In this document: positions 1,321 through 4,106 of the stretch, piece by piece | Numbering within the stretch: position 1 is the stretch's first letter | Layout of the letters: each line of letters starts with the position of its first letter | Source of the DNA: Balneolaceae bacterium | GTDB taxonomy: Bacteria; Bacteroidota; Rhodothermia; Balneolales; Balneolaceae | DNA length: 38,406 nt | Reading direction: 5' to 3' | NCBI GenBank assembly: GCA_007118695.1 | Contig: SKRC01000196.1 | Span: 1-38,406, forward strand | Program-made: the position numbers and the translations under genes | The notes under the pieces: generated by a model | Told to the model about the DNA's origin: nothing | The model's input: the letters and a program-made list of their open reading frames with translations, nothing else | Database searches by the model: none

Positions 1321-2019
1321 ATGCAAACAGTTAAAGAGACAATTTGGGAAGTCATTTATGCAGTGATGCCCATAACGGTTCTGGTAATATTGCTGCAATA
1401 TACACTGATATGGCTGCCGTTCGAATCACTTGTACAGTTTCTGATCGGGGTTGTTTTTGTCTCCGGCGGTTTGATTTTGTTTCTGCTTGGGGTGCATATT
1501 GGATTGCTGCCGGTCGGAGAGATGATCGGGTCCGCACTGCCCAAAACCGGTAAGGTTTGGCTGATCGTTATCTTCAGCTTTGTACTCGGTTTTGCCGTTA
1601 CCGTTGCCGAACCGGATGTTCATGTCCTCTCGCAATATGTGGATGAGGTATCCGGTGGCGAAATCGGGAAATGGCAGCTGATTATTCCTGTTGCCCTCGG
1701 TCTTGGTATTTTTGTAGCTCTGTCGATGATCAGAATTGTATACAGCATCTCCATCAAATGGATTTTACTGGGAGGCTATTCGCTGGTCATGATCCTGGCT
1801 TTCTCATCGTGGGTGCCCGACACTTTTATTCCGATCTCGTTTGATGCCGGCGGCGTAACCACGGGACCGATGGCTGTGCCTTTTATCCTGGCATTCGGAG
1901 TTGGTGTGGCCACGGTGTTAAGAACCGACGACAAGGCCGCCGACGGGTTCGGCCTGGTTGCCCTTGCCTCCATTGGCCCGCTGCTGGCCGTGTTAATCCT
2001 TGGAATGATTTTCGCATAG
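1321..2019 (+). CDS. DUF1538 family membrane protein, first copy
   Basis: This is a very hydrophobic 232-residue protein with about six or seven membrane segments, spread over residues 12-32, 38-60, 78-96, 118-140, 146-165, 185-200 and 212-231. Hallmarks shared with the next gene are GVHIGLLPVGEMIG (57-70), AEPDV (96-100) followed by the YVDEVSGG stretch, FDAGGVTTGPM (174-184) and DGFGLVAL (208-215). These match the uncharacterised DUF1538 family, whose molecular function I do not know. The conserved polar AEP and DAGGxxTGPM stretches within membrane segments look like a transport path. The next gene, a paralogue, starts 10 bases downstream. This suggests that the two form one heterodimeric membrane unit, as halves that are sometimes joined in one chain. 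Confidence 0.8.
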   Translation: MQTVKETIWEVIYAVMPITVLVILLQYTLIWLPFESLVQFLIGVVFVSGGLILFLLGVHIGLLPVGEMIGSALPKTGKVWLIVIFSFVLGFAVTVAEPDVHVLSQYVDEVSGGEIGKWQLIIPVALGLGIFVALSMIRIVYSISIKWILLGGYSLVMILAFSSWVPDTFIPISFDAGGVTTGPMAVPFILAFGVGVATVLRTDDKAADGFGLVALASIGPLLAVLILGMIFA

Positions 2020-2029
2020 AGCACAAACT

Positions 2030-2761
2030 ATGGATGTAAAAATATTTTATGGATTCGGAGATGTATTAGGCGAGGTGGCCATAGCCCTGATACCGCTGAT
2101 TCTGTTTTTTCTTTTTTTCCAGATCTGGATGCTGAAACTACCCTGGAAGAAAGTCAGAGATATCGTCGTCGGGCTGGTACTGGCCTTTATGGGACTGGCA
2201 TTATTCCTGCAGGGAGTCCATGTCGGGTTTCTTCCCGTTGGCCGTGAAATCGGAGATATAGTCGGGGACTGGGATCACCAATGGATTCTGATTCCTGTCG
2301 GTTTTCTGCTTGGTTTTGTAGCCACATTTGCCGAACCGGCCGTAAAAGTGCTTAATCATGAGGTGGACAAGGTATCGGGTGGTTACATACCCAAGAAATT
2401 GATGCTCTATACGTTATCCATAGGTGTGGCCATTTCCATTGCCCTGGCCATGGCCCGTATCATCTATGGAATACCCCTTTGGTATTTCATAGGGCCCGGC
2501 TATGCACTTGCATTGTTTTTAACCATTTTTTCAACAGAAACCTTTACGTCGATCGCATTCGATGCCGGAGGGGTTGCAACCGGCCCGATGACCGTTACAT
2601 TTATCCTGGCTATCGCCCTGGGTTTTGCCGAAACCCTTGAAGGACGGGACCCGCTGCTCGACGGGTTCGGCATGATTGCACTTGTGGCCCTGGCCCCTAT
2701 ATTAACCGTATTGACACTCGGGCTGCTTTACAAACTAAAAGAATCCCAAACCGATGATTGA
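2030..2761 (+). CDS. DUF1538 family membrane protein, second copy
   Basis: This is a 243-residue polytopic membrane protein paralogous to its upstream neighbour. GVHVGFLPVGREIG lies at about 62-75, AEPAV at 101-105, VDKVSGG at about 112-118, FDAGGVATGPM at 187-197 and DGFGMIAL at about 211-218. All of these line up with the first copy. The two copies are clearly divergent, so this is not a recent duplication. Its last eight bases overlap the PII-like gene, which implies translational coupling between the membrane protein and its presumed regulator. The most likely role is one half of an unidentified transporter or channel. The substrate cannot be read from the sequence. Confidence 0.8.
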   Translation: MDVKIFYGFGDVLGEVAIALIPLILFFLFFQIWMLKLPWKKVRDIVVGLVLAFMGLALFLQGVHVGFLPVGREIGDIVGDWDHQWILIPVGFLLGFVATFAEPAVKVLNHEVDKVSGGYIPKKLMLYTLSIGVAISIALAMARIIYGIPLWYFIGPGYALALFLTIFSTETFTSIAFDAGGVATGPMTVTFILAIALGFAETLEGRDPLLDGFGMIALVALAPILTVLTLGLLYKLKESQTDD

Positions 2762-3095
2762 AAAAGTAGGTGACCATTTCAAGCTAATTGTCATTATCGT
2801 GAAAAAAGATCTTTCACGGGAGGTGATAAAAAGTTGTATTGAGGCGGGTGCTGAAGGCGGAACGGTTCTTCATGGCAAGGGAACCGGCAGGCATGAAACC
2901 GGTTCGGTGCTCGGAATCAAAATTGAACCTGAAAAAGATGTAATTCTTTGCCTGGCCGCTGATGACATTGTAGATGATGTACTGAAACAGGTCACGGCTG
3001 CTGTAAAACTGGATGTGCCGGATACCGGTATTGCATTTGTCATCAACAGCAAGAGTGTTACCGGTATTGCGCACTTGCTGGAAAAAGATTTTTAA
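2754..3095 (+). CDS. PII-like signalling protein, first copy
   Basis: This 113-residue protein has the PII (GlnB/GlnK) fold pattern. An N-terminal strand (FKLIVIIV) leads to GAEGGTVLHGKGTG (about 32-45, equivalent to MTVTEVKGFG of GlnB). Then comes a strand after IEPEKD, a DDIVDDVLKQVTAA helix, and the B-loop-like segment DTGIAFVIN. Compared with GlnB, the T-loop is about six residues shorter and has no tyrosine at the uridylylated Tyr51 position, so UMP modification is unlikely. PII proteins are trimers that sense adenine nucleotides, often with 2-oxoglutarate, and commonly gate a membrane transporter. The overlap with a DUF1538 gene suggests that this is its partner here. Confidence 0.75.
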   Translation: MIEKVGDHFKLIVIIVKKDLSREVIKSCIEAGAEGGTVLHGKGTGRHETGSVLGIKIEPEKDVILCLAADDIVDDVLKQVTAAVKLDVPDTGIAFVINSKSVTGIAHLLEKDF

Positions 3096-3115
3096 CCGTT
3101 AACAACCAACCGATT

Positions 3116-3463
3116 ATGGAACATAAAATCGAATTCAGCCTGATTGTCAGCATCGTCAATAAAGGCCACTGTGGCACGGTGATGGATGCATCACGCCAAG
3201 CCGGTGCGGATGGAGGTACATTTATCAAGGGCCGCGGTTCCGGCATCCATGAAAAAGCAAAACTCTTTACCTTCACGATTGAACCGGAAAAGGATATTGT
3301 TCTGACGCTCGTTCCGAAGAAAATCGCAGATGATGTCCTGGAGGCCATCGTGACTGCCGCTGAACTGAATAAACCGGGAAAAGGAATCGCATTTATTCTG
3401 GATGTGGAAAAAACGGCCGGGATTAATCATCCGGTCGATCCCGAAAAAAAAGAACATGAATAA
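3116..3463 (+). CDS. PII-like signalling protein, second copy
   Basis: This 115-residue paralogue of the preceding gene has the same order of elements. GADGGTFIKGRGSG replaces the GKGTG stretch, IEPEKDIVLTL follows, and the B-loop-like segment is NKPGKGIAFILDV, which is closer to classical PII than in copy one. The T-loop is again short and lacks tyrosine. It begins 20 bases after copy one, and its end overlaps the DsbA-like gene by eight bases. Two PII copies beside two DUF1538 copies suggest a mixed trimer or one regulator per membrane subunit. That is inference; only the gene pairing is seen. Confidence 0.75.
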   Translation: MEHKIEFSLIVSIVNKGHCGTVMDASRQAGADGGTFIKGRGSGIHEKAKLFTFTIEPEKDIVLTLVPKKIADDVLEAIVTAAELNKPGKGIAFILDVEKTAGINHPVDPEKKEHE

Positions 3464-4106
3464 ACCCACCTTTGTTTACATTTACGACCCGCTTTGCGGA
3501 TGGTGTTTTGGGTTCATTCCGGTGCTCGAGCGGCTCCGAAAACGGTTTGAAGGCCGACTTGAATTTGAGATTGTCTGTGGGGGACTTGCTGTAGGCGACA
3601 ACGCCCAGCCGATTGGTGAAGGATACGCCTATATCCGGGATGCCTTGAAACAGACAGAGGAAGTAACCGGTGTAAGATTTGGGGAGAATTTCAAACTGCT
3701 GGCTGAAGAAGGCAGCTACCTGTACGATTCAATGCCTCCTTGCAAGGCCCAGATTGCGGTCAGGGAGCTCGCCCCGGCCGAAGCGATCGATTTTGGCACC
3801 GCCATGCAGAAAGCCCTGTTTTTGGATGGCAAAGACCTGAACCTGCCGGATACCTATAAAGAGATACTGGAAGATTTTGAACCGGATTATGATTCCTTTT
3901 CGGCTCGTTATGAAAGCAAAGAATTAATACAGAAGACCCGGGAGGAGTTCGAATGGTCCAGAAAGGCCGGGGCAACCGGTTTTCCGACGATACTGCTGCG
4001 TTTGGATCGGGAATACGGTATTGTGACGAAAGGATACAGGCCCTATGATGCCCTGGAATCGCACCTGCATCACCTGTTGAATAACATTGAAAAAATCAGA
4101 AACTGA
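3456..4106 (+). CDS. DsbA-family thioredoxin-fold oxidoreductase
   Basis: The 216-residue protein starts with a thioredoxin-fold strand and a CxxC active site (YIYDPLCGWCFGF, Cys at about 12 and 15). A long helical insertion follows, then the cis-Pro loop region (GATGFPTILL), the layout of DsbA/FrnE-type proteins. I chose the ATG at 3456 over an in-frame ATG at 3402. The first 18 residues from 3402 are read from inside the PII gene, and homologous starts lie just before the first strand. There is no signal peptide, so it is probably cytosolic. It is translationally coupled to the second PII gene. A functional link to the transporter module is possible but unproven. Confidence 0.8.
   Translation: MNKPTFVYIYDPLCGWCFGFIPVLERLRKRFEGRLEFEIVCGGLAVGDNAQPIGEGYAYIRDALKQTEEVTGVRFGENFKLLAEEGSYLYDSMPPCKAQIAVRELAPAEAIDFGTAMQKALFLDGKDLNLPDTYKEILEDFEPDYDSFSARYESKELIQKTREEFEWSRKAGATGFPTILLRLDREYGIVTKGYRPYDALESHLHHLLNNIEKIRN

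Follow-up and report, generated by a model that had tools for sequence, protein, structure and literature searches.

Four consecutive genes near the start of a 38,406-nucleotide stretch of DNA (hereafter the window; contig SKRC01000196.1 of assembly GCA_007118695.1, from a Balneolaceae bacterium) probably encode a PII-controlled monovalent cation/proton antiporter unit, in which a UmpAB-type pair of membrane proteins is accompanied by two dedicated PII-fold regulators. The genes belong to two families that stand in a conserved order and co-occur almost perfectly across genomes, and the PII proteins fall on a branch of their own. The signalling fold of nitrogen control would then probably also switch salt and pH pumps. 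We found no link between DUF1538 and PII in the open literature and no description there of a PII-like protein/antiporter pairing of this kind; the reports on UmpAB concerned antiporter work, cable-bacteria genomics or unrelated matters. The DUF1538-PII pairing is thus new to the accessible literature, with a description elsewhere being possible, and the component families are known.

The sequence-only reading of the window had recognised two paralogous DUF1538 membrane proteins sharing AEP and FDAGG motifs, followed with overlap or at close spacing by two paralogous PII-fold proteins, and profile searches confirmed both pairs (Table 1). The two DUF1538 proteins match PF07556 with 248 and 262 bits against a cut-off of 22.6 (positions 1-211 and 2-211 of 211), are 41% identical to each other and both contain AEP and FDAGGVxTGPM. 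PII-a and PII-b, which are 40% identical, match PF00543 with 37.1 and 37.0 bits against a cut-off of 25, and score 161 and 171 bits with a profile of DUF1538-linked PII proteins. The DUF1538 genes are separated by 10 nt, subunit B overlaps PII-a by 8 nt and a gap of 20 nt lies between the PII genes. An esterase-like gene (600-1268) is found upstream and a DsbA-like gene (3402-4106), the likely ATG of which overlaps the PII-b stop, downstream; these neighbours accompany the unit in Balneolaceae only. No cation or c-di-AMP riboswitch was detected upstream of the unit in the window or in 18 related loci, and the Cobalamin and c-di-GMP riboswitch matches in the 18 loci have no tie to DUF1538. The host genome contains a single DUF1538 pair. 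Apart from the window pair, it has a single PII gene, located on a different contig (L211; G000:C229:20160-20408), which is short, lies near efflux-type genes and is probably a PII-NG; no clear GlnB or GlnK was found in the host assembly, which is 94% complete.

Table 1. Genes of the candidate antiporter unit in the window
Feature	Position	Strand	Pfam match
DUF1538 subunit A, UmpA-like membrane protein, 232 aa	1321..2019	+	PF07556, E=6.1e-74
DUF1538 subunit B, UmpB-like membrane protein, 243 aa	2030..2761	+	PF07556, E=4.6e-78
PII-like protein a (PII-a), 113 aa	2754..3095	+	PF00543, E=4.2e-9
PII-like protein b (PII-b), 115 aa	3116..3463	+	PF00543, E=4.6e-9

The earlier statement that the substrate of DUF1538 is unknown is out of date. 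The UmpAB proteins of Halomonas zhaodongensis are a DUF1538 pair that was shown experimentally in 2017 to be a Na+(Li+,K+)/H+ antiporter, which restored growth in salt and alkali to E. coli KNabc, had an antiport optimum of pH 9 and was found to be a heterodimer by co-immunoprecipitation (PMC5484666), and NCBIfam names the family in the same way. The best NCBIfam models for both window proteins are the UmpA/UmpB subunits of the Na,Li,K/H+ antiporter, with E values of about 1e-36 (for subunit A, 1.8e-36 with the UmpB and 9.5e-35 with the UmpA model). The scores of 120-128 bits (126 and 128 being the best for each protein) do not reach the cut-offs of 490-500 bits of the UmpA/UmpB equivalogs (NF041627, NF041628), and because they lie so far below, it is by analogy that we infer the same substrate for the window pair; the transporter class is known for the DUF1538 family, and the substrate class of the window subfamily would follow it. 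UmpAB and the window pair share the Pfam family, the tandem arrangement of homologous membrane genes, about 7 membrane segments and conserved acidic residues. The window proteins are shorter (232 and 243 versus 254 and 271 aa), and the account of UmpAB notes additional loops and a hydrophilic tail and does not mention PII (PMC5484666). Since Halomonas UmpAB was active in E. coli with no PII expressed alongside it (PMC5484666), PII is dispensable for transport as such. A machine-learning study also counted DUF1538 among its predictors of growth pH (PMC13255231).

An AlphaFold2 model of subunit B, built from 25 sequences (pLDDT 81.9), is all helical, and its helices are broken at AEP and TGP. 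Two acidic residues adjoin the helix breaks, E102 in AEP and D178 in FDAGG, and interrupted helices with acidic residues are a common property of ion-coupled carriers. Both positions, which correspond to E97 and D175 of subunit A, are acidic in 99-100% of the subunit A and B domains; the position of R143 is mostly basic. The placement of E102 and D178 at the breaks of two membrane helices in the model makes them a likely, putative cation/proton site. The model had no match among solved structures in the PDB (best E 0.6, TM <=0.3), so that no known transporter fold was recognised for DUF1538, and a profile comparison of the two halves of the protein gave no signal of an internal repeat.

The predicted structure of PII-b, in which the T-loop and C-terminus are of low confidence, has a PII fold, with GlnK/PII structures matched at E 4e-6 to 6e-5 and probability 1.00 among the best 50 matches. 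No SbtB was present among those 50, and an SbtB-like class is not favoured, as no SbtB came ahead of GlnK/GlnB in the sequence search. Comparison with E. coli GlnK showed that the window proteins and most of about 220 relatives have replaced or lost the residues that contact the phosphates of ATP (K90 to I, R101 to G, R103 lost) and those for 2-oxoglutarate (K58 to E, Q39 to H). Six positions of the T-loop (GlnK 37-55, the region of Y51) are absent in nearly all relatives, namely GlnK 41 and 46-50. Conserved His and Glu residues take the place of the canonical nucleotide residues, and an alternative set of motifs (RG[ST]G[IV]HE, IEPEK[DE], PGxGIAF and GIxH) shows its strongest conservation in PII-b and in PIIs that occur singly, PII-a being the more diverged of the two. 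In their ligand residues, in the lack of a long T-loop and in their placement in the tree described below, these proteins are not canonical GlnB/GlnK. The replaced ligand residues and missing T-loop positions disfavour GlnK-type ATP/2-oxoglutarate chemistry. The suggestion that the unit is a PII-gated transporter or channel is supported by gene association. A T-loop shorter by about 6 residues and the replaced GlnK ligand residues make a deep plug of the GlnK type unlikely. From their sequences, PII-a and PII-b may form a mixed oligomer in which a single ligand site is conserved.

The association of the two families was upheld in a survey of genomes. The sequence-only reading would have been undermined by DUF1538 occurring mostly without PII genes, and the opposite was found in Bacteroidota (9/9), Bacillota (137/139) and plasmids (9/9). 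In the sample of 296 Bacteroidota genomes, DUF1538 was above the cut-off in 9 and the DUF1538-linked PII (>41 bits) was present in exactly those 9; the next PII matches, at 36 bits, lie beside RND pumps, and the remainder resemble GlnK, GlnB, NifI or the RND-linked PII. Among 398 Bacillota genomes, 139 contain DUF1538, and the two of these without the PII have a gene broken by six stops in one case and a contig end in the other. Eight Bacillota genomes have such a PII and no DUF1538. The Fisher p-values of 2e-17 (Bacteroidota) and 4e-94 (Bacillota) treat genomes as independent and are overstated; the breadth of the association over three phyla is independent of them. Searches of plasmids with the DUF1538 and the PII-b proteins, run independently, returned the same nine records, Alphaproteobacteria included. 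Named genomes were scanned with weak patterns that brought in hardly any group besides Balneolaceae, so that named proteobacterial chromosomes, Halomonas included, lie outside the survey.

The genes are also closely linked. Of the Bacillota clusters that could be read, 107 of 109 have a PII within 1 kb downstream, and the PII gene adjoins DUF1538 in all 9 Bacteroidota and in all 9 plasmids. When all sampled loci are counted, a PII domain follows on the same strand at <=1 kb in 132 DUF1538 clusters; in 124 of these the genes overlap or are <=30 nt apart, a count in which overlaps are somewhat overstated because ORF starts were set mechanically. DUF1538 is encoded either by a gene pair or by one fused gene, and for PII paired, fused and single genes all occur. 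The surveyed loci contained no protein in which DUF1538 and PII are fused, and no viral copies of DUF1538 were found. A single intact DUF1538 locus (L095) stands without PII, and its genome has a PII doublet elsewhere (L174:4392-6897), opposite a 455-aa ORF without Pfam or NCBIfam match. The other DUF1538 loci without PII comprise a sub-threshold match (L011) and contig ends (L122, L145, L147 and L049). At L149 (G353:C1:2161174-2161630) the DUF1538 gene is decayed, with six in-frame stops, and the genome contains no PII of the subfamily. Several loci have unusual forms. In one distant Bacteroidota genome (G087; L010:1390-3270 and L178) a fused 626-aa DUF1538 with a long insert precedes a PII protein of three domains and 380 aa. 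In a small Clostridia MAG (L032:6772-7383) the first half of the PII is too diverged for the profile and the second half is normal. On a Chelativorans conjugative plasmid (L039:4345-4893) subunit A is truncated at its N-terminus, with subunit B and PII intact.

Related PII proteins adjoin other transporters. A PII of the DUF1538-linked subfamily is found beside a CitMHS/ArsB-type permease at three loci, as the PII of genome G664 and as extra copies in G643 and G614; at these loci (L171:5658-7592, L172:5494-7358 and L173:3828-5705) the permease matches PF03600 at about 1e-90 and no DUF1538 adjoins. The best NCBIfam model for the permease is MamN, below its cut-off, and NhaB/NhaD match weakly. 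In other genomes with a PII but no DUF1538, more distant PII relatives adjoin Na+/H+ exchangers, five of which were confirmed as PF00999. A profile of these PF00999-linked PIIs finds relatives in 85 of the 398 Bacillota genomes (E 1e-9), about ten of them only in the weak score range in which DUF1538-linked PIIs match too. All of 30 sampled Bacillota loci (L214-L243) have an exchanger-like neighbour, which Pfam assigns to PF00999 in 29. An unrooted tree of 74 PII domains (125 alignment columns, after 12 long or odd rows had been dropped following a first tree) separates 58 antiporter-linked domains from 16 of GlnB, GlnK, NifI and PII-NG with support 100/99, and within it the DUF1538/permease-linked PIIs (95/97) and the PF00999-linked PIIs (97/88) form clades. 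A common origin of the antiporter-linked PIIs is likely from this tree. On balance, and with less assurance than for the window unit itself, we favour the view that a separate PII branch is dedicated to monovalent cation/proton antiporters, pairs with DUF1538/UmpAB, the CitMHS/ArsB-type permease and PF00999, has a ligand site that differs from the one in GlnK and serves partners that are non-trimeric.

A simple alternate explanation is that the PIIs are ordinary nitrogen regulators that happen to be transcribed in the same operon, since Pfam names both proteins nitrogen regulatory protein P-II. This is very improbable: the genes co-occur in two phyla and on plasmids, the PIIs branch apart from GlnB/GlnK with the support given above, and K90, R101, R103, K58 and Q39 are lost. 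As far as genomes can show, the survey refutes it. A more serious concern is that the PII-linked DUF1538 subfamily moves some other solute, through K+ release or as an ammonium or organic solute transporter for example, with UmpAB being unrepresentative and the PIIs gating that transport instead. The scores far below the UmpA/UmpB cut-offs would fit this, as would the many Clostridia among the hosts, some of them gut or soil non-halophiles, and the three related PIIs beside CitMHS/ArsB-type permeases, whose substrate is open. We nevertheless regard it as unlikely, given that a second and separate PII branch adjoins Na+/H+ exchangers of PF00999 at 29 of the 30 loci sampled, that the acidic motif residues are invariant, that close named relatives come from saline alkaline lakes and that DUF1538 is among the growth-pH predictors (PMC13255231).

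It could also be proposed that the PIIs, instead of gating the antiporter, act at the membrane as sensors of cations, pH or energy that inform some other partner, or that the antiporter is a mere membrane anchor for them. In E. coli, AmtB also sequesters GlnK at the membrane, and the exchange of canonical nucleotide residues for conserved His/Glu would fit this reading. This explanation is rather improbable, because no further gene accompanies the unit outside Balneolaceae, to which the esterase and DsbA-like neighbours are confined, and the examined PIIs of the branch all adjoin transporters, except for the L174 doublet, whose neighbour has no family match. In favour of gating, AmtB and SbtA are established cases of transporters under PII control (PMC10710835). 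The known PII-gated transporters are trimers (PMC10710835), which counts against a PII-gated unit here, as UmpAB is reported to be heterodimeric; the lack of a DUF1538-PII fusion in the surveyed loci and the PII-independent activity of UmpAB in E. coli (PMC5484666) count against it too.

In the PII-controlled antiporter unit that we favour, DUF1538 A and B would form a heterodimer, as in Halomonas UmpAB, and export Na+ (Li+, K+) against H+, with E102 and D178 serving as the presumed cation/proton site. PII-a and PII-b would come together, probably in a mixed trimer, that docks on the cytoplasmic side of the antiporter and, in response to a small ligand, switches it on or off, both the gating and its direction being conjectural. 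Because the ATP/2-oxoglutarate residues of GlnK are gone, the ligand would be bound otherwise than these are in GlnK. The arrangement resembles GlnK-AmtB in that a PII-fold gene adjoins the transporter that it presumably controls; it differs in having two PIIs with a shorter T-loop and without the GlnK ligand residues, and in that the partner is an antiporter from a family unrelated to AmtB. Like SbtB with SbtA, the window PIIs would be dedicated partners of one ion transporter family with a ligand use unlike that of GlnK, whereas SbtA is a trimeric bicarbonate transporter. NifI1/NifI2 are likewise two tandem, diverged PII-family genes for one target, yet they lie beside nitrogenase genes and group in the tree with GlnB/GlnK, away from the antiporter-linked PIIs. 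PII-NG, found beside RND metal pumps, is also a PII relative adjoining a membrane pump; it belongs to a different branch and scores <=36 bits with the DUF1538-linked PII profile.

The nearest named relatives are Balneolaceae genomes, several of which have the CSSed label that denotes metagenomes of Siberian soda-lake sediments at pH 10 (PMC6146748). An antiporter with an alkaline optimum suits a soda-lake setting, a fit that is only circumstantial because many other carriers of the unit are not known as haloalkaliphiles. If the proposal is true, many bacteria, among them roughly one in three of the Bacillota sampled, would possess a dedicated soluble switch for the Na+/H+ and K+/H+ antiporters that are central to salt and pH tolerance. 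The claim that PII control is restricted to trimeric transporters (PMC10710835) becomes directly testable. The genes annotated as 'P-II family nitrogen regulator' in carrier genomes, where that name is probably wrong, would gain a role, and PII control, so far a matter of nitrogen and carbon, would extend to the balance of cations and pH.
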